Assembly (NCBI GenBank): GCA_013153725.1
Contig: JAADDY010000043.1
Coordinates: 1-39,480 of the forward strand
Length of the DNA stretch: 39,480 nucleotides
DNA from: Thermodesulfobacteriota bacterium
Lineage (GTDB): Bacteria; Desulfobacterota; Thermodesulfobacteria; Thermodesulfobacteriales; Thermodesulfatatoraceae
Reading direction: 5' to 3'
Shown: piece by piece, positions 21,002-38,625 of the stretch
Position numbering within the stretch: the stretch's first letter is position 1
Layout of the letters: every line of letters starts with the position of its first letter
Notes under the pieces: generated by a model
The model's database searches: none
The model's input: only the letters and a program-made list of their open reading frames with translations
What the model was told of the DNA's origin: nothing
Made by a program: the position numbers and the translations under genes

Positions 21002-23062
21002 TTGCTCACAATCTTTCTGCTGTGGGGGCTTTTGACCTTTTTTCTCCCGACTTTTGGCTGGGGGCATGAAGCCAAGCCCGGAGCCGTTCTTGAAAGCTTC
21101 CTTTCCAGTGCCACCGAAGTAGCCACCTTCAGCGGTTTCAACATCGATCAAATCCCTTCCTCTTTCACCATTTTCGACCGCAAAATGATCGAACGCACCG
21201 GAGCCACCACCATAGCCGAGCTCTTGCGTTTTGTCCCCGGGCTCGAGGTCATTCGAGAGAACAACGGTACCTATCATCTCATCGTCCGCGGAAACTATTC
21301 GGACCGCAGGGTTCTGATTCTCTGGGACGGTCAACCCTTGAACCACTTGCTTCTCAGAAGAGCTTTGAGTTTTGTGGGAGCCCTTCCGGTGGACATCCTG
21401 GAGCGTATCGAGATCTCCAGAGGCCCTTCTTCGGCGGTTTATGGCTCTTATGCCGTAGGAGGCGTGATAAACCTTGTCCCCCGACGCTGGAAGAATAGCG
21501 GGGAGATCGGCGGAGCCTTGGGACATTTCGATACCGGACGGGGGTTCATCTCCGGAGGTTTCATAAAAAACACCTGGGAGTTTCAGTTCAGTGCCGGAAA
21601 GAGCACCTCAAACGGAGATCGCTTTCACGTAAAGGATGCCGCCGGCATCCCCGGTACGGCAGACACCCATTTCGATACCAACTGGCAGGAGTTCCGGCTG
21701 GCCTGGAAGGGGTTGCGTTTGAAGATGTTCCGCTTCGACGTCACTCTTTCTCATTACTACGGTCTTTCGGATCGCCTTGGTAGAAGCAATGACCCCGAAA
21801 ACCACTACAAACAATTCGGCGGGCAGGTAACTTACGATTTCGAAATCGCCAAAGAAACCACCGGGCATCTCTATTTCAACTGGCGCCAAAACATCCTCGA
21901 TTACGGGACCTTTTACGTTTTTCACCCCGCCTCCAAAGAAATTCCCCCTGTAAAGAGATTCCTCTTGCGCTTTCCCGATCCCTATGACGCTCCTACCCTG
22001 GCTCACGAAAAGAGTCGTCTGAGGGAGATCGTTTACGGCTTCAGGTTGAAAACGAAGTGGCAGACGCATTCCTTGCGTTTGGGAGTAGAGTTTCTGGAAA
22101 ACGGTATCCGCTCCTCCAAACTCCTGGCCAATCGTTCTCTACCGGAGTTTCGCCCCCTACCCACCCTTGAGAGACAACACGACCCCTGGCCGCCAAAGAC
22201 CGAGAGGATGTGGGCGGTCTACTTTCAGGACGAATGGGAACTCGGACCCCGTGACGAACTCAATCTGGGGCTGCGCTACGACAAATACAACGGCTTCAAC
22301 GGGCAATTCAGCCCTCGCATCGTCTGGATACACCGTTTCACCCCGAAACTGATTTCAAAATTCATCTACGGGCATGGCTTTCGGATCCCGGATCTCGATG
22401 CCCTCTACGACGACCACTCCCCCCTGGTGGTCGGGAACCCGGATCTCGATCCTGAAAAACTCGATTCTCTGGAACTGGTCCTCATCTGGAAACCCAATCC
22501 CAAAAACCGATTGAGCCTCAGCCTCTTCCGTATGTGGCTCAGGGATGTCCTCGGACGCCGAAATCCAGTGGGCATAGGAGGATGGACCTACCAACAAGGG
22601 GGAGACGAAGATGTCGTAGGTGGCGAAATCTCTTACCACTACCGGGGTGTTCACTGGGATATCTATCTTTATGGGAGCTACCAGTGGGGAGAAAACGAAT
22701 TTGACGAACCGCGCCCCTACGTGGCCAACGTCTTGGCCGGAGGTATCATTTCCTACACCTTCGGTTCCCTTCCTTTGGAGATAAACCTGGCCTGCAACTA
22801 TGTGGGGCCTCGCTGGCGCGAGAAATTCAACCCCGTCCGTGGCACCAACACCTACATTCCAGACCCTCGAGACAAACTTGACGGTTACACCAACGTCAAC
22901 CTCAAAATAATCTACGACGTCACCTCCAAGATTTCGGCCTGGTTTGGAGTCACCAACCTCTTCGAGGATGATATCCGCTACCCTTCTTCTTGGGGAGGAA
23001 TTCCGGACGATTATCAGGAAAATGGGCGTTACCTTGAGATGGGGCTTCGGATTCGATTTTAG
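21002..23062 (+). CDS. TonB-dependent outer-membrane receptor
   Basis: 686-residue receptor. Signal peptide about 1-20 (LTIFLLWGLLTFFLPTFGWG), then a plug domain about 45-170 (TIAELLRFVPGLEV, RGNYSDRRVLILWDGQPLN, ERIEISRGPSSAVYGSYAVGGVINLV) and a beta-barrel to the C-terminal phenylalanine of RIRF, the outer-membrane assembly signal. The TTG start has AGGGGTG upstream. Ligand unknown; the next two genes encode a YfiR-like periplasmic protein and a hybrid sensor kinase, so this may be a signal-sensing receptor rather than only a transporter. No TonB-ExbB-ExbD genes are nearby. Confidence 0.9.
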   Translation: MLTIFLLWGLLTFFLPTFGWGHEAKPGAVLESFLSSATEVATFSGFNIDQIPSSFTIFDRKMIERTGATTIAELLRFVPGLEVIRENNGTYHLIVRGNYSDRRVLILWDGQPLNHLLLRRALSFVGALPVDILERIEISRGPSSAVYGSYAVGGVINLVPRRWKNSGEIGGALGHFDTGRGFISGGFIKNTWEFQFSAGKSTSNGDRFHVKDAAGIPGTADTHFDTNWQEFRLAWKGLRLKMFRFDVTLSHYYGLSDRLGRSNDPENHYKQFGGQVTYDFEIAKETTGHLYFNWRQNILDYGTFYVFHPASKEIPPVKRFLLRFPDPYDAPTLAHEKSRLREIVYGFRLKTKWQTHSLRLGVEFLENGIRSSKLLANRSLPEFRPLPTLERQHDPWPPKTERMWAVYFQDEWELGPRDELNLGLRYDKYNGFNGQFSPRIVWIHRFTPKLISKFIYGHGFRIPDLDALYDDHSPLVVGNPDLDPEKLDSLELVLIWKPNPKNRLSLSLFRMWLRDVLGRRNPVGIGGWTYQQGGDEDVVGGEISYHYRGVHWDIYLYGSYQWGENEFDEPRPYVANVLAGGIISYTFGSLPLEINLACNYVGPRWREKFNPVRGTNTYIPDPRDKLDGYTNVNLKIIYDVTSKISAWFGVTNLFEDDIRYPSSWGGIPDDYQENGRYLEMGLRIRF

Positions 23063-23071
23063 AGGCAAAAA

Positions 23072-23641
23072 GTGGGCAGGAAGATCCTTCTCGGAACGAT
23101 CATTGGACTCTTCTTAATGGCCTCCAAGGCCCATCCCCGGACCTTGGTAACCATAGAGTCAGAGAAAGCCCGTCTCACCCTGGCCCTCCTTTCCCGTCTG
23201 GTGAGGCTCGAGAAAAATTTTAAAGACCATCTCCCCCTCCGGGTGCTTGTCATCCTTCCCCAGACCAAGACCGCCTTTCAGGATCAGAACATCGTCAATG
23301 AGGCAGTGAAGGACTTTTTCTTGGAAAACCAAGAGTTCCAGGCGACCTTCGTGAAAGACCCCCAGGAGGCCCTCACCCTTCTTGAGAAGGATGACTTCGA
23401 TATTCTCTATGTAGCGGGGCCTCTTCCAAAACTGAAACAAATCCTGGAGAAGGCCATAGCAAAAAAAGTCCTGACCATTTCTCACCTCCCTGAGCTCCTG
23501 GAGGCGGGGCTTGCCCTCTCCCTCGATCTGGATCGCCGAAAGGCCTGCATCGTGGTAAACAAAGAAACCTGGAGAAAGCTGGGGTTGGAATTTCCACCAG
23601 AGGTAATCCAAAAATTCTGTTTCATATCCTCTAAGAAATGA
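23072..23641 (+). CDS. YfiR-like periplasmic protein (DUF4154)
   Basis: 189-residue protein with an N-terminal signal peptide ([18 protein letters not shown]). The body ([60 protein letters not shown]) matches the YfiR/DUF4154 fold as I recall it, with the usual ILYV and GLALSLDL strands. YfiR in Pseudomonas is a periplasmic repressor of a membrane cyclase; here the partner would be the kinase directly downstream. GTG start after AGAGG, 9 bases after the receptor. The stop overlaps the kinase ATG (ATGA). Confidence 0.78.
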
Positions 23642-25515
23642 TCTTCCGAAAAGGGCGTCTCTTTCAGATCAAGTTTCTCTTCGTGGCGGCGATTGTATTT
23701 TCTCTGGCCATCTCCTTCGGGGCCACCCTCTGGGGAACCTACGTGCTCCGCCAGGAACTCCTGCGTGAAAGAGAAGAGACCTTGAGACTTCTCATAAAAC
23801 ACACGGCCGAAGTCCTGAAACCGCACCTCAAATTCAAGGTGAGGAAAGAGATCTCTCGTATTCTGGAAGAACTTCTCCAGTTCGATTTCATAAACGGAGT
23901 AAGGGTCACCTGGAAGGAACCTCCCATCTACCAGGACATCAGACACCTGGACATCCTCCTGGGAGAAAAGACCTCTCCTGCCGTTCAAACTCTCTCCGTG
24001 CAGAAGGGCAATCTCAACGAAGGGAAAATTATCACCTTTCCGTTGAAAGACGGAAAAGAAACCCTGGGTTACCTGGAAGTGGCGGTGGACGATAGCCTGC
24101 ACCAGAAGATTATACAAAAGGCGCTCTTCAACTTTTTGCTCATAGGATTCCTCCTCTCGAGCTTATTGTGCGGAATCCTCTATCTCTACTATCACTTCGT
24201 AACCATGCCGATTCTGGATCTGGCAAGCCACATCAAGGAGCTCCAGGAAAAATCCAAAGAAGGCAACCTGAAACCCTTTCCCGAGCTTCTGGCCCCTGAA
24301 GAGATAAAGAACCTCATCAGGGTGTTCAACGAACTCATCAAACGCATAAACATCTCTCAGGAAAATCTGAAAAACACGATGGAACAATGGCGCATCGAAG
24401 CTCACCGCGCCGAGCAAGCAAGCCAGGCCAAAACCAAATTTCTGGCAAACGTCTCTCACGAGATTCGCACCCCCATCACCGCGGCCCTGGGAATGGTAGA
24501 GCTCCTGAAAGACTCCCCTCTTACTCCGGAACAGAGAGAACAGCTCTCTCATCTGGAAAAGTCCCTTGAAAATTTGAGAGAGCTTTTGAACGAAACCCTG
24601 GATTTTGCCAAACTCGAAGAAGGAGCTGTCATCCTCAAGGAAGAACCTTTTGATCTCAAAGCCCTGCTGGAAGAATGTCTCAAACTCTTTATCCCCGAAA
24701 TGGAAAGGAAAGGGCTTCGCTACGAAATCAAGGTTCCCGAAGGATTGCCGCAATTTTTGGGCGACCGGGCCAAAATCAAACAGATCATCCTCAATCTTTT
24801 GAGTAACGCCGTAAAGTTCACCGAACGAGGCAAAATCACTCTGGAAGCCGTCCCCCTCAAAAAGGGCGAAAATTTCTATCACTGGCAAATAGCCGTTCGC
24901 GATACCGGACGAGGGATAACCGAAGAAGATCTCGAAAAGATCTTCTTACCATTTGAGCGCCTGGAGGAAAGCTTCGACAAGTTCTATTTTGGCTCCGGTC
25001 TCGGGCTTGCCATTGCCAAGCGTTTGGCCAAACTCCTGGGTGGCAAACTCTGGGCCGAAAGTTATGGTTCCGGCAAGGGAAGCACTTTCTATCTCGAGAT
25101 CCCTCTCAAAGTCTACGATCTGGAAAAGGAGGAAAAGAGCAACCTTCCCGAGAAACTATCGGGGAAGGTCCTCCTTGCCGAAGACAACCCGGTAAACCAG
25201 CTTTATTTTCGCAAGGCGTTAGAGAGGTTGGGGCTTGAAGTTACCCTGGCCCGTGACGGCTATGAGACTCTTGAGATCGCCCGTAAAGGGTCTTTCGATC
25301 TCCTCCTTCTGGACATCCGAATGCCCGGAATAGACGGGCTTGAAGTGGCTCGTATCCTCCGGCGGGAAGGTTATTCCGGGCCCATCCTTGCCCTCACCGC
25401 CCATGTGGTAGAAGAAATCGAAAAAGAGGCCCAGAGGGCCGGTCTTGACGGCTTTATTACCAAGCCCGTTACCCGCCAGGAACTTGCCAGGCGTCTGGCA
25501 AAATGGCTTTCTTAA
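23638..25515 (+). CDS. Membrane hybrid sensor histidine kinase with receiver domain
   Basis: 625-residue membrane kinase. A first membrane helix (about 10-30), a periplasmic sensor loop (about 35-160), a second helix (about 160-185), a HAMP-like linker, HisKA with the phospho-acceptor His in [15 protein letters not shown], HATPase (N box [10 protein letters not shown] box [16 protein letters not shown]) and a C-terminal receiver domain (about 505-622) with [19 protein letters not shown] (phospho-acceptor Asp) and the Lys in FITKPV. No histidine phosphotransfer domain or output is fused. The periplasmic loop is where the YfiR-like protein would act. Last gene of the receptor module. Confidence 0.9.
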
Positions 25516-35093: not shown

Positions 35094-35693
35094 ATGCCGA
35101 AAGAATATCTTATCTTCGTCCTGGCCTATCTTCTGGGCTCCATCCCCACCGCCCTTCTGGTGGCCAAACCCTTCGGGATAGACCCCCGTGAGCACGGCAG
35201 CCGCAACCTCGGGGCCACCAACGTGGCCCGTCTTCTGGGCAAAAAATGGGGGCTCCTTACCTTGCTGGGAGACATGGGAAAGGGCATCCTCCCCATGCTT
35301 CTTGCCCTGAAAATCTTTGAAGGACACCCTGAAAAAGACCTTCTCGTGGCGGGAACCGGCTTCTTCGCCTTCCTGGGGCACCTCTTTCCCCTTTATTTGC
35401 GCTTTCGAGGTGGAAAGGGAGTGGCCACGGCTACCGGAGTCTTCCTGGTGCTTTGCCCCAAGGCCCTGGGAGTAGCACTCCTCCTTTTCGTATTGGCGGT
35501 GAAGTTCTCAGGCTTCGTCTCCGTGGGCTCCCTCCTGGCCTCGGCCCTGATGCCGCTTCTGATCTATTTCTTCTGCCCCAAGAAGCCATACATCCTGGCC
35601 GCCACTCTTATGGCCCTCCTCATCTGGATCAAGCACAAGGACAATATCCGCCGCCTCCTGCGCGGTGAAGAAAAAAGCTGGAAGAAGGCTTAA
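35094..35693 (+). CDS. plsY: Glycerol-3-phosphate acyltransferase PlsY
   Basis: Inner-membrane enzyme that acylates glycerol-3-phosphate with acyl phosphate, the first step of phospholipid synthesis. The 199-residue protein has about five membrane segments and the three PlsY motifs: LLGSIPTALLVA, HGSRNLGATNVARLLG, and LGHLFPLYLRFRGGKGVATATG. The C-terminal tail (IRRLLRGEEKSWKKA) is basic. GAGAGGAGC precedes the ATG. Divergent from the EF-G gene, 48 bases between. Confidence 0.95.
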   Translation: MPKEYLIFVLAYLLGSIPTALLVAKPFGIDPREHGSRNLGATNVARLLGKKWGLLTLLGDMGKGILPMLLALKIFEGHPEKDLLVAGTGFFAFLGHLFPLYLRFRGGKGVATATGVFLVLCPKALGVALLLFVLAVKFSGFVSVGSLLASALMPLLIYFFCPKKPYILAATLMALLIWIKHKDNIRRLLRGEEKSWKKA

Positions 35694-35717: not shown

Positions 35718-35746
35718 TTGACTTGAAGCCCGATTTAGCCTATTAT
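35718..35746 (+). promoter_or_regulatory. Promoter before YeiH-family gene
   Basis: TTGACT (35718-35723), 17-base spacer, TATTAT (35741-35746), 31 bases before the ATG at 35778. One of the best sigma-70-like promoters in the window. Confidence 0.7.
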
Positions 35747-35777
35747 CGGCAAAAATTAGGCTGTTTTGGAGAATAAT

Positions 35778-36857
35778 ATGAGAATTGAGGCGCAGTCTCA
35801 AGTATCTGTACGCTCCAAAACCTTAGGTCAGGAAATTATCTCCAGCATTCCCGGGGCCCTTCTGGTAATCGCCGTGGCGCTTGCCGCTTACGCCATTGCT
35901 CCCCATCTTCGCAAATACGAGCTCTTTCGGACCTACATCCTGCTGAAAGACTTCATCCTGGCAATCCTTCTCGGGATCGTCATCCGCAACACCGTGGGGG
36001 TGCCAAAGGTGTTTCATCCCGGTCTCCGGTTTTCCACCGTGCTGACCAAGACTGGCATCGTGGTCATGGGAGCCAAGTACTCCATGATGGGTTTGGTGAA
36101 GGTGGGGGGGCCGGCCCTGGTCTATATCGCCACCTTTCTCTTCGGCTCGGCGATAGCTCTCATGTGGGTGGCCAATCGGTTTCGGGTTCCCACCCCGCTG
36201 GCGGCGTGTCTCTCCGCCGGGCTATCGGTATGCGGGGTCTCCGCCACCATCGCCATTGCCCCGGCGGTGCGGGCCAAAAACCGCGACATGGCCTATTCCA
36301 TCGCGGTGGTCCTCATCTTTGGTCTCCTGGCCCTCATCGTCTTTCCGACCATCGGCAAGCTCCTGAACCTGAGCGACGTCCAGTACGGGGCCTTCTGTGG
36401 CGTGGGAATTGTCAATTCCGCCCAGGTCCTGGCGGCAGGCTTCGCGTACAGCGAAGAGGCCGGCCTGGTGGCGGGGATCTACAACATCGGGCGGGTGGTC
36501 TTCCTACCCTTCGTGGTCCTCATGCTGGCCATCATGGCTGCCAGCCGGGAGGCCAAAGAAGGCGGGCAGGTGACGGAAATCAACAAGATGCAGATCATTA
36601 TCGAGAAGTTTCCGGTCTTCGTCCTGGGGTTCCTGTTCGTGGTGCTGCTGAACACCTTTGGTTTTCTCAACAAGGCCGAAATCCACCAGGCCAAGGTCTT
36701 CATGAACTGGTGCTTCCTCCTGGGTTTTGCAAGCATCGGGCTTACGACCCGGCTCTCCGATCTCAAGGCCGCCGGGCTTTCAGGTTTCCTCTTGGGGTTT
36801 GTGGTGGCCGGGCTCAAGGCCGCCCTGGCCTTAATCGTTGTAATGACTCTCATGTAG
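35778..36857 (+). CDS. YeiH/UPF0324-family putative sulfate (sulfite) exporter
   Basis: 359-residue integral membrane protein with about ten hydrophobic segments, of the YeiH family often annotated as putative sulfate exporter. Family stretches: RNTVGVPKVFHPGLRFS, LKTGIVVMGAKYSMMG-type region, LAACLSAGLSVCGVSATIAIAPAVRAK, and FCGVGIVNSAQVLAAGFAYSEEAG. True substrate is not proven. GGAG lies before the ATG; an in-frame TTG at 35766 is less likely. It heads a cluster with a microprotein, a Usp-like protein, an Rrf2 regulator and a siroheme reductase. Confidence 0.85.
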   Translation: MRIEAQSQVSVRSKTLGQEIISSIPGALLVIAVALAAYAIAPHLRKYELFRTYILLKDFILAILLGIVIRNTVGVPKVFHPGLRFSTVLTKTGIVVMGAKYSMMGLVKVGGPALVYIATFLFGSAIALMWVANRFRVPTPLAACLSAGLSVCGVSATIAIAPAVRAKNRDMAYSIAVVLIFGLLALIVFPTIGKLLNLSDVQYGAFCGVGIVNSAQVLAAGFAYSEEAGLVAGIYNIGRVVFLPFVVLMLAIMAASREAKEGGQVTEINKMQIIIEKFPVFVLGFLFVVLLNTFGFLNKAEIHQAKVFMNWCFLLGFASIGLTTRLSDLKAAGLSGFLLGFVVAGLKAALALIVVMTLM

Positions 36858-36866
36858 GAGGAAGAA

Positions 36867-36947
36867 ATGTCCAAAGAGCGCAAACAGGATCTGGCGGTCA
36901 TAATCATGGGGATCCTTCTGGTGCTCCTGGCCAAGTTGCTCCATTGA
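36867..36947 (+). CDS. 26-residue single-pass membrane microprotein
   Basis: Short frame MSKERKQDLAVIIMGILL... of 26 residues: a charged N-terminus and one hydrophobic helix (about 9-25, ending AKLLH). AGGAGG (36856-36862) is placed well before the ATG. It begins 9 bases after the YeiH-type gene and ends 1 base before the next gene's GTG. It is a strong translation candidate; function unknown, perhaps an accessory or regulator of the exporter. Confidence 0.7.
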   Translation: MSKERKQDLAVIIMGILLVLLAKLLH

Positions 36948-36948
36948 A

Positions 36949-37398
36949 GTGTCTCGCATCCTGCTTCTCCTCCTGGAAGAAGAAGGGCTCCTGAGGGCCA
37001 TCGATTGGGCCCTCTTCTGGGCGAATATCTTTAAAGCCGCCATCAAAGGTCTCATCATCTCCGACCGTAGACTCTTCCACTTCGGAGAAGTCGATCCCCT
37101 GGCCTCTACCGCCAGTCGCAAAAAATTTCTGGCCTATCTGGAAGAGGAAGAATCCCAGAAGGTAAAGAAGCTGGCAGAAATTTTCTCCGGAAAAGTCAAG
37201 GCAAGCGGACTCTTTTACAGTTTGGAGACCCTGGAAGGACCTTTTGAGGAAAACCTTCTCGGGTGCCTGCGGAGTTTTAAGCCTCATCTGCTGATCTGGC
37301 CCTTGAGTAGCGGGAAAAAGCTCGTTTTGGCGGGAAAACTCTATCATCCCCAGGGTTATTTGCGGAAAATTCCCTGTAAGATCCTTTTTGTACCCTGA
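36949..37398 (+). CDS. Degenerate universal-stress-protein-like protein
   Basis: 149-residue soluble protein, not firmly recognised. The opening (RILLLLLEEEGLLRAIDWALFWANIF) and the end (LRKIPCKILFVP) look like the first and last strands of a Usp fold, and LRSFKPHLLIWPLSSG resembles the ADLIVMGS region, but the nucleotide-binding glycine motif is absent. The GTG start lies one base after the microprotein stop, so it uses coupled translation. Its role near the exporter is unknown. Confidence 0.6.
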   Translation: MSRILLLLLEEEGLLRAIDWALFWANIFKAAIKGLIISDRRLFHFGEVDPLASTASRKKFLAYLEEEESQKVKKLAEIFSGKVKASGLFYSLETLEGPFEENLLGCLRSFKPHLLIWPLSSGKKLVLAGKLYHPQGYLRKIPCKILFVP

Positions 37399-37430
37399 TT
37401 TCAAGCTCGCAAAAATGACAAAATTTGGGC

Positions 37431-37459
37431 TTGACAACTTTCTACTATTTAGGTATTTA
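37431..37459 (+). promoter_or_regulatory. Promoter of Rrf2 regulator gene
   Basis: TTGACA (37431-37436), 17-base spacer, TATTTA (37454-37459), 33 bases before the ATG at 37493. Nearly consensus. An autoregulatory operator is expected for an Rrf2 gene; none was identified with confidence. Confidence 0.75.
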
Positions 37460-37492
37460 AACACCACAATATCACAGAGAGGTTTGAAGGCG

Positions 37493-37909
37493 ATGCCAAC
37501 TAGCGTTTTGAGAATTTCGGAAGCTTTATCACTGGGGCTGCACGCCATGGCCTATCTCTCAAGCACCCCGGAGAAGCCGCGGCGGGTGAAAGAAATCGCC
37601 AAGAGGCTCCGGGCCTCAGAGGCCCATCTTTCCAAGGTGCTCCAGGCCCTGGCGCGCGCCGGCCTTCTCAAGGCCACCCGCGGCCCCAAGGGGGGCTACA
37701 TGCTGGCCAAAAAGCCCGAAGAGATATCTCTTCTGGACATCTTCGAGGTCATCAATGGCCCGCTAGAAGACCAGCGTTGCCTCTTTAAGGAGCCTCTCTG
37801 TAGCGGCGAAAGGTGTCTTCTGGGCAGCCTCCTGGAAGACGTAAATCGCCTGGTAAGGGAGCACTTTTCCAAAACCACGCTCAAAGAAGCCCAAAACATC
37901 TTGACTTAA
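37493..37909 (+). CDS. Rrf2-family regulator with three cysteines
   Basis: 138-residue winged-helix regulator of the Rrf2 family. HTH about 25-70 with KEIAKRLRASEAHLSKVLQAL and RGPKGGYMLAK. C96, C103 and C108 (spacing C-x6-C-x4-C) form a cluster-binding site like that of IscR/NsrR/RsrR, but with its own spacing, so the signal (Fe-S status, NO, redox or sulfur) is open. The ATG at 37493 fits the known N-terminus (LRISEALSLGLHAM). Followed after 17 bases by the siroheme reductase gene, a likely target. Confidence 0.88.
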   Translation: MPTSVLRISEALSLGLHAMAYLSSTPEKPRRVKEIAKRLRASEAHLSKVLQALARAGLLKATRGPKGGYMLAKKPEEISLLDIFEVINGPLEDQRCLFKEPLCSGERCLLGSLLEDVNRLVREHFSKTTLKEAQNILT

Positions 37910-37926
37910 AGAAAGGAGGAGAAGCC

Positions 37927-38586
37927 ATGTTGAAGGACGGAGAAAAGGGAGCAGTTCTCCAGCGAGACAAAGAAACCTACGCCATCGTTCCACACGTTCC
38001 CCTGGGGGTTGTGACCCCGGAATTTTTGCGCAAGATTGCCGAGATTGCCGAAAAATACGGCGTCAAAGCCATGAAGCTTACCAGTGCCGACCGTATCGCT
38101 CTGGTGGGTCTCAAGGAAGAAGACATAGACAAGGTCTGGGAGGAACTGGGCGTCGAGCCCGGCGCAGCGGTGGGAGCCTGCGTGCGCAGCGTCAAGGTCT
38201 GCCCCGGGACCACCTTCTGTCGCCTGGGTCAGCAGGATTCTCTGAGCCTGGGAGCCGAGCTTGACAAGCGCTATCACGGCTACCAGCTCCCGGCCAAGTT
38301 CAAGATCGGGGTTACCGGTTGCATCAACGATTGTGCCGAGACCTGCCTCAAGGACCTGGGCTTTGTCGGCAAACCCAAGGGTTGGACCGTCCGGGTGGGC
38401 GGATGCGGTGGTTCCCGTCCGCGGCTGGCCCAGACCCTGGTGGAGAACGTCTCCACCGAAGAGGCTCTCGAGATCGCTGAAAAGATCATCAAATACTACG
38501 AAGCCAACGCCAAGAAGGCGGATCGCCTGGGCCGCCTCATCGAGCGGGTAGGTTTTGAAGAGTTCAAAAAGGCCATCCTGGGCTAA
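37927..38586 (+). CDS. Small siroheme/[4Fe-4S] sulfite-reductase-like protein
   Basis: 219-residue protein of the nitrite/sulfite reductase family in the low-molecular-weight (assimilatory-type, aSiR) form known from sulfate reducers. Cluster cysteines C92 and C98 (CPGTTFC, C-x5-C) and C132 and C136 (CINDC, C-x3-C) fit the coupled siroheme-[4Fe-4S] centre, with C140 and C85 nearby. NIR_SIR half domains surround it. It may reduce sulfite to sulfide. AAAGGAGGAG precedes the ATG. Transcribed with the Rrf2 gene from 37431 and closed by the terminator at 38593. Confidence 0.88.
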   Translation: MLKDGEKGAVLQRDKETYAIVPHVPLGVVTPEFLRKIAEIAEKYGVKAMKLTSADRIALVGLKEEDIDKVWEELGVEPGAAVGACVRSVKVCPGTTFCRLGQQDSLSLGAELDKRYHGYQLPAKFKIGVTGCINDCAETCLKDLGFVGKPKGWTVRVGGCGGSRPRLAQTLVENVSTEEALEIAEKIIKYYEANAKKADRLGRLIERVGFEEFKKAILG

Positions 38587-38592
38587 AAAGCA

Positions 38593-38625
38593 AGGCCCCG
38601 GGCTCCGGGGCCTCCTTTTCTTTTG
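38593..38625 (+). terminator. Intrinsic terminator after siroheme reductase
   Basis: AGGCCCCGG (38593-38601), loop GCT, CCGGGGCCT (38605-38613), followed by CCTTTTCTTTTG. A strong GC stem with T-rich tail. Confidence 0.9.

Follow-up and report, generated by a model that had tools for sequence, protein, structure and literature searches.

A putative split YeiH-like transporter and an Rrf2-siroheme reductase pair side by side in a Thermodesulfobacteriota draft genome

Contig JAADDY010000043.1 of assembly GCA_013153725.1, from a Thermodesulfobacteriota bacterium of the Thermodesulfatatoraceae, carries five consecutive genes on the forward strand (35778-38586). They encode a YeiH-like transporter (yeiH), a microprotein, a Usp-like protein (usp), an Rrf2-family regulator (rrf2) and a small siroheme reductase (sir). 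The stretch analysed, positions 1 to 39,480 of this contig, is referred to here as the window. The five genes are read as two independent modules placed side by side in this genome: a trio encoding a split transporter, and an older, autoregulated rrf2-sir pair. Moderate confidence attaches to this reading as a whole. Judging from sequence, the microprotein most likely corresponds to the transporter's N-terminal helix, encoded as a polypeptide of its own. An earlier sequence-only reading had proposed that the five genes are a single cluster run by Rrf2; however, the exporter trio and rrf2-sir lie apart everywhere else that was looked at.

In same-genus genomes covering this spot the order is fusA (on the opposite strand), plsY, rrf2 and sir, usually with dctA next, and the trio is absent between plsY and rrf2 in all genomes whose contigs cover it. 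Variations within the genus include one opposite-strand open reading frame (ORF) between plsY and rrf2 in G003, an uncalled plsY in G004, and an extra gene 3′ of sir in G003, G004 and G007. Since rrf2-sir stands without the trio in its genus, the trio is best seen as an insertion in the source genome. A second copy of the trio occurs in G008, whose transporter is 82% identical to that of the window, on a contig separate from its own rrf2-sir. The 68 YeiH-related loci drawn from the named genome collection (up to 5 kb on each side) contain neither rrf2 nor sir, and yeiH was found in none of about 40 sir loci (flanks of at least 1.5 kb). Because neither module adjoins the other elsewhere, the five-gene combination is unique to the source genome within the searched set. 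The sequence-only reading had itself named the lack of a conserved gene order as something that would refute its proposal, and the single-cluster idea fails on this point. Most of the taxonomic order retains the rrf2-sir pair, as does a single genome farther away (G104); three genomes of the order (G020, G035 and G039) and the remaining phylum members examined lack it.

The transporter, its microprotein and the Usp-like protein

The YeiH-like protein matches PF03601 over residues 26-338 (E=1.5e-56; 192 bits against a cut-off of 24.5) and falls below the YeiH model TIGR00698 (105.8 against 232.6 bits). Its AlphaFold model has a mean predicted local distance difference test score (pLDDT) of 83.6. 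The top Foldseek matches of this model, examined for a CPA/AT-type membrane fold related to the 2HCT transporters, are CitS and Na+/H+ antiporters, which are weak (E only 0.03), and a sequence search of solved structures returned only potassium-channel matches, dismissed as chance.

The microprotein, MSKERKQDLAVIIMGILLVLLAKLLH, has an ORF preceded by AGGAGG and matches no Pfam or NCBIfam family. In a profile search of 8,174 small ORFs, relatives of the microprotein lie next to yeiH on the same strand in 52 of the 68 YeiH loci, and nearly all remaining matches are second copies in Desulfotomaculum-type loci. Two layouts are found. In type A, as in the window, the microgene follows yeiH and usually encodes 26-41 residues; in type B it precedes yeiH and encodes about 49-70. 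Both share a core in which an R-x-[QE]-D stretch runs into one hydrophobic helix. All 17 type-A loci L132-L148 contain the microprotein, with a Usp next in most, and classical YeiH-type loci among the 68 (Alcaligenaceae, Bacillus and others) are without it. Ten of the 19 base differences between the microgenes of the window and L132 fall at third codon positions. As judged from these comparisons, the microprotein belongs to a conserved family that is most likely part of the transporter system. In Desulfotomaculum-type genomes (L144, L145, L146, L148 and L157), a further PSE gene accompanied by a microprotein of its own apparently lies about 4.6 kb from the first (Table 1), and sensor kinase and response regulator genes occupy the interval.

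The relation of the microprotein to the transporter can be followed in longer members of the family. When 297 phylum genomes were searched with the microprotein profile, 22 matches resulted, 21 of which lie beside a PF03601 gene or in frame at its N-terminus: 13 are in-frame N-terminal fusions (for instance SDLWKKEDYWAIWLGFFLLIV), one is interrupted by TAG and seven are separate neighbours. PF03601 genes occupy about 1/1000 of a genome or less, so this placement is far from chance. In a fused member, AlphaFold models the microprotein-like stretch as a helix of its own (residues 16-34). A midpoint-rooted tree places the fused, classical and split forms in separate supported groups, with the split forms together at 98/93; it has long branches and gives no direction between splitting and fusing. 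The 359-residue protein would be the core of a split PSE-family secondary transporter, and the 26-residue protein would provide the extra transmembrane helix that longer members have at the N-terminus of the same chain. The two chains presumably form a complex. In L232 (G201 C113:10891-11847), a PF03601 gene has one in-frame TAG, with a microprotein-like helix in the piece before the stop.

The Usp-like protein of the window has no Pfam match, PF00582 included. It aligns over 150 residues with the Usp at the same position in L137 (E=4e-18), which itself matches Usp at 3e-20, and this homology rules out an unrelated protein. The motif H[YF]Gx[VIF]DxL occurs in 17 of 18 type-A companion Usps. 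The ATP motif G2xG9xG(S/T) occurs in none of 38 companion rows, that of the window included, a count that is approximate because a few of the 20 type-B rows are the next gene rather than Usps. Such a Usp suggests a regulatory or scaffold role, and may act as a dedicated cytoplasmic partner or regulator of the transporter. A broader proposal is put forward tentatively, at somewhat short of even odds: the PSE oxyanion exporters of sulfur-cycling microbes would be split machines, composed of a core, a helix microprotein of 26-70 residues and a dedicated Usp lacking the ATP motif, in which helix and Usp switch the transporter on and off, unlike in one-chain relatives.

Hints on the substrate come from other bacteria. 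YeiH of Salmonella is the main sulfite-resistance factor, and mutation of yeiH raises sulfite sensitivity about 20-fold (PMC12880088). In Hyphomicrobium, yeiH is up 526-fold with thiosulfate and is a candidate sulfite exporter (PMC11582611). The neighbours of some relatives of the window locus include TauE or CitMHS/sulfate-type transporters or phosphonate-binding-type (PF12974) proteins, and most YeiH-related loci come from organisms that reduce sulfate or oxidise sulfur. Sulfite export is the leading hypothesis, by analogy, because of the Salmonella and Hyphomicrobium evidence together with these neighbourhoods. The heat-loving host is most likely sulfur-respiring, since its genome has two DsrA/DsrB-like genes elsewhere (contig C32), and the trio would most likely export cytoplasmic sulfite made during that respiration. 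A non-sulfite substrate (sulfate, molybdate, another oxyanion or a carboxylate), which would make the link to a sulfite reductase accidental, is an unlikely alternative that draws on the weak fold kinship to the citrate symporter CitS (Foldseek; PMC8396727), on the molybdate phenotypes of the Desulfovibrio vulgaris operon DVU0542-0545 and on the regulator DVU0539, which targets lactate genes as well. The phenotype of Salmonella YeiH is, however, specific to sulfite, and both the TauE neighbours and the occurrence chiefly in sulfate reducers and sulfur oxidisers favour sulfite export. A literature search did not find YeiH and sulfate reducers together in those words; the D. vulgaris operon appears under 'putative sulfate exporter'.

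Sensor kinases and response regulators lie near type-B operons and several type-A ones, some accompanied by PF12974 proteins. Downstream of the Usp, type-B loci (L086, L087, L089 and others) carry another conserved gene, encoding about 190-200 residues with one C-terminal helix and matching no Pfam family, and these loci also have a divergent kinase and an NtrC-type regulator; some of these kinases have a substrate-binding-like N-terminus. A cysteine-synthase gene follows the type-A trio in L133, L135 and L136, and in L133 it is fused to a cysteinyl-tRNA synthetase.

The Rrf2 regulator and the siroheme reductase

The Rrf2 protein matches PF02082 (E=1.5e-31; 109.7 against a cut-off of 30 bits) and TIGR00738 (99.3 against 73.3 bits), and lies below the equivalog cut-offs for IscR (58.9/207 bits), NsrR (37.6/182), CymR (56.9/195) and RirA (52/193). 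The three cysteines pointed out in the sequence-only reading, C96, C103 and C108, are invariant in 13 orthologues. They lie in the C-terminal half and probably hold an iron-sulfur (Fe-S) cluster.

Ahead of rrf2, a palindromic operator with the consensus AATATTTAGGTATTTAAATACCTAAATATT is predicted both in the window and in 11 relatives from three families. The symmetrised profile built from these 12 sites gives leave-one-out scores of 17-39 bits. The site extends over both the spacer and the -10 box in the rrf2-sir promoter, which makes it a place for a repressor. All relatives examined keep TTGAC ahead of rrf2, and this promoter was not picked up by the promoter scan because the final base of its -10 box is A. 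A profile search of the source genome returned the rrf2 site as the best match (E=2e-5). The next match (E=2.9) falls, on a reading of the ORFs, in the gap that separates hisA from a mechanosensitive-channel-like gene, and a wider Rrf2 regulon was set aside, as nothing beyond the rrf2 site stands out. Because the search yields this site alone, Rrf2 is most simply a local autoregulator. It would repress its own promoter through the 30-bp palindrome; damage to or loss of the putative cluster would release the promoter, and the small sulfite reductase would be made. In G004 an operator-like site (E=0.019; C6:43403-43423) lies directly before a porin-like gene, a possible second Rrf2 target in that one genome.

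The sir protein matches NIR_SIR_ferr (E=1e-17) and NIR_SIR (E=3e-35) in Pfam and fits the layout of alSir (group I Dsr-LP) proteins, with 219 residues, one ferredoxin-like half domain and a 4Fe-4S siroheme domain. The siroheme-4Fe4S cysteine motifs CX5C and CX3C are present as CPGTTFC and CINDC, and the Pfam scan found no Fer4 domain, that is, no extra ferredoxin cluster. On these features, the enzyme belongs with the small sulfite reductases of the alSir type, whose physiological role has been called unclear (PMC3448663, PMC6286981), and by analogy with that family it would reduce sulfite (or nitrite). It is doubtful that the pair responds to nitrite or nitric oxide (NO), as NsrR does, or to redox stress rather than to sulfite. 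The Rrf2 family includes the NO sensor NsrR, and sir has its best NCBIfam match with NirB, a nitrite reductase model, albeit far under the cut-off (191 against 578 bits); against this, the regulator is far under the NsrR cut-off and the closest solved structures to sir are sulfite reductases. The source genome has a second small siroheme reductase-like gene (C53:1117-1740), 31% identical, as do several members of the genus.

Transcription signals and the junction of the modules

The sequence-only reading placed its five genes, two promoters and terminator correctly, and its gene assignments agree with the Pfam families found and, for the Usp-like protein, with homology to a true Usp. Its sulfur-oxyanion theme is plausible in the light of Salmonella YeiH and of the small sulfite reductase family; the unity of the cluster and its common control did not hold up. 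A single sulfite-response regulon, in which both promoters are under Rrf2 and sulfite is exported or reduced together, is improbable. The genes are co-directional, the terminator scan found none between usp and rrf2, and, apart from the rrf2 site, the stretch of the window that scores highest as an operator is one at 35690. However, this stretch upstream of yeiH scores only 7.7 bits against the 17-39 bits of real sites (shuffle P=0.02), and an operator shared with yeiH, which the earlier reading had suggested looking for, was rejected for lack of a credible site there. The gene order is also unique to the source genome, and many trios of relatives are linked to two-component systems and none to Rrf2. 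Under the two-module reading, the trio would have been inserted between plsY and rrf2, and any joint control would come by read-through rather than a common operator; such read-through could still co-regulate the modules in the source genome, since no terminator separates usp from rrf2. An error of metagenome assembly at the junction would fit a fragmented draft (1.6 Mb, 81% complete) and an order seen nowhere else, yet it is very improbable, as plsY, rrf2, sir and dctA all agree with their counterparts in the genus and are arranged around the trio as expected, and the G+C content of yeiH resembles that of its neighbours.

The promoter of the trio agrees with the consensus at 10 of 12 positions (the scan returned four promoter-like sites against 1.2 expected) and is not conserved upstream of the trio copy in G008. 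An inverted repeat in the yeiH leader is possibly a site for some regulator other than Rrf2. The terminator after sir is the strongest of the region. Elsewhere in the window, positions 21002-25515 hold a TonB-dependent receptor-like gene and, after it, genes for a secreted-type protein and for a hybrid sensor kinase, an apparent uptake and sensing cluster by ORF reading only.

Several points weigh against the reading of two modules with a split sulfite exporter. Each match to a fused helix is short and of modest significance by itself (1e-3 to 1e-7), and the structure models of the microprotein and transporter system cover single chains only. The step from Salmonella YeiH spans a long distance because the window protein is well under the TIGR00698 cut-off. 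The weak operator-like stretch upstream of yeiH also counts here, as may, by analogy, the related D. vulgaris operon with its mixed molybdate phenotypes (PMC10102598) and a regulator linked to lactate genes (PMC3333781).

Table 1. Features of the five-gene region (window positions) and apparent second-copy stretches of Desulfotomaculum-type loci (locus named)
Feature	Position	Strand	Details and basis
Trio promoter, sigma-70 type	35718-35746	+	TTGACT-17-TATTAT; consensus match only
Inverted repeat, yeiH leader	35737-35762	not assigned	AGCCTA-n14-TAGGCT; one genome only
YeiH-like PSE-family transporter, core subunit	35778-36857	+	359 residues, ATG start, PF03601; Pfam and AlphaFold
Microprotein	36867-36947	+	26 residues, single transmembrane helix; homologue of N-terminal helix in longer PF03601 proteins
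Usp-like protein, divergent	36949-37398	+	GTG start; HFGEVDPL signature of type-A companion Usps
rrf2-sir promoter	37431-37459	+	TTGACA-17-TATTTA; sequence and TTGAC conservation
Predicted palindromic operator	37444-37473	not assigned	30 bp, over spacer and -10 of rrf2 promoter
Rrf2-family regulator	37493-37909	+	138 residues, CX6CX4C; Pfam, NCBIfam, orthologue alignment
Siroheme sulfite reductase, alSir type	37927-38586	+	219 residues, small, single-unit
Intrinsic terminator after sir	38593-38613	+	9-bp stem, 8 G-C pairs, T-rich tail
Second copy, L146	2-449
Second copy, L145	241-387
Second copy, L148	314-436
Second copy, L144	115-258
Second copy, L157	5966-6163

Comparison with described systems

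Sulfite is toxic and made by every sulfate reducer, and how it is kept in check is poorly known. A conserved detached-helix microprotein of a sulfite-type exporter would turn this question into a concrete, testable list of parts, and the split transporter would join a small set of transporters with single-helix partners. YeiH of Salmonella and Escherichia coli (TIGR00698, PSE family TC 2.A.98) is likewise a PF03601 transporter, with a demonstrated role in sulfite resistance; the window protein differs in falling under the YeiH cut-off, and classical YeiH-type loci lack the microprotein and branch apart. The long PF03601 proteins (430-620 residues) share the transporter domain and have the microprotein helix motif at their N-terminus (KKEDYWAIWLGF), but form one chain instead of two and a tree group of their own; the PSE_2 topology (PMC8396727) is a possible match for them.

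The regulator resembles those of the IscR, NsrR and CymR types in family, in its three cysteines and in an AT-rich palindromic operator over the promoter, and differs in lying under every equivalog cut-off and in its CX6CX4C spacing. The reductase resembles alSir or group I Dsr-LP enzymes such as DVU1597 (PMC3448663, PMC6286981; compared by description), which are small, single-unit siroheme-4Fe4S sulfite reductases; the window type is distinguished by its pairing with an autoregulated Rrf2 in most of the order. With the 30-bp operator in hand, the regulation of alSir, an enzyme for which no role is agreed, becomes open to direct test.

The nearest described case to the trio is found in D. vulgaris, where DVU0542-DVU0545 (with DVU0540/0539; PMC10102598, PMC3333781) form a single operon that encodes a PSE transporter, a one-helix protein and two Usps. 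Compared by description, this is the plan of the type-A loci, and in the window, too, transporter, microprotein and Usp are adjacent and in one direction. The molybdate phenotypes of this operon are partly opposite in sign and its role has been called unclear (PMC10102598); DVU0539 activates its promoter and is also tied to lactate genes (PMC3333781). Unlike the window trio, beside which no two-component system was found, the D. vulgaris operon is under a two-component system and does not lie beside rrf2-sir, and DVU0544 is reported as a protein of 133 residues with a transmembrane helix against 26 for the window microprotein. The split-helix reading may explain the one-helix gene in this molybdate-response operon. 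The result of most value here is the putative family of split-transporter microproteins.

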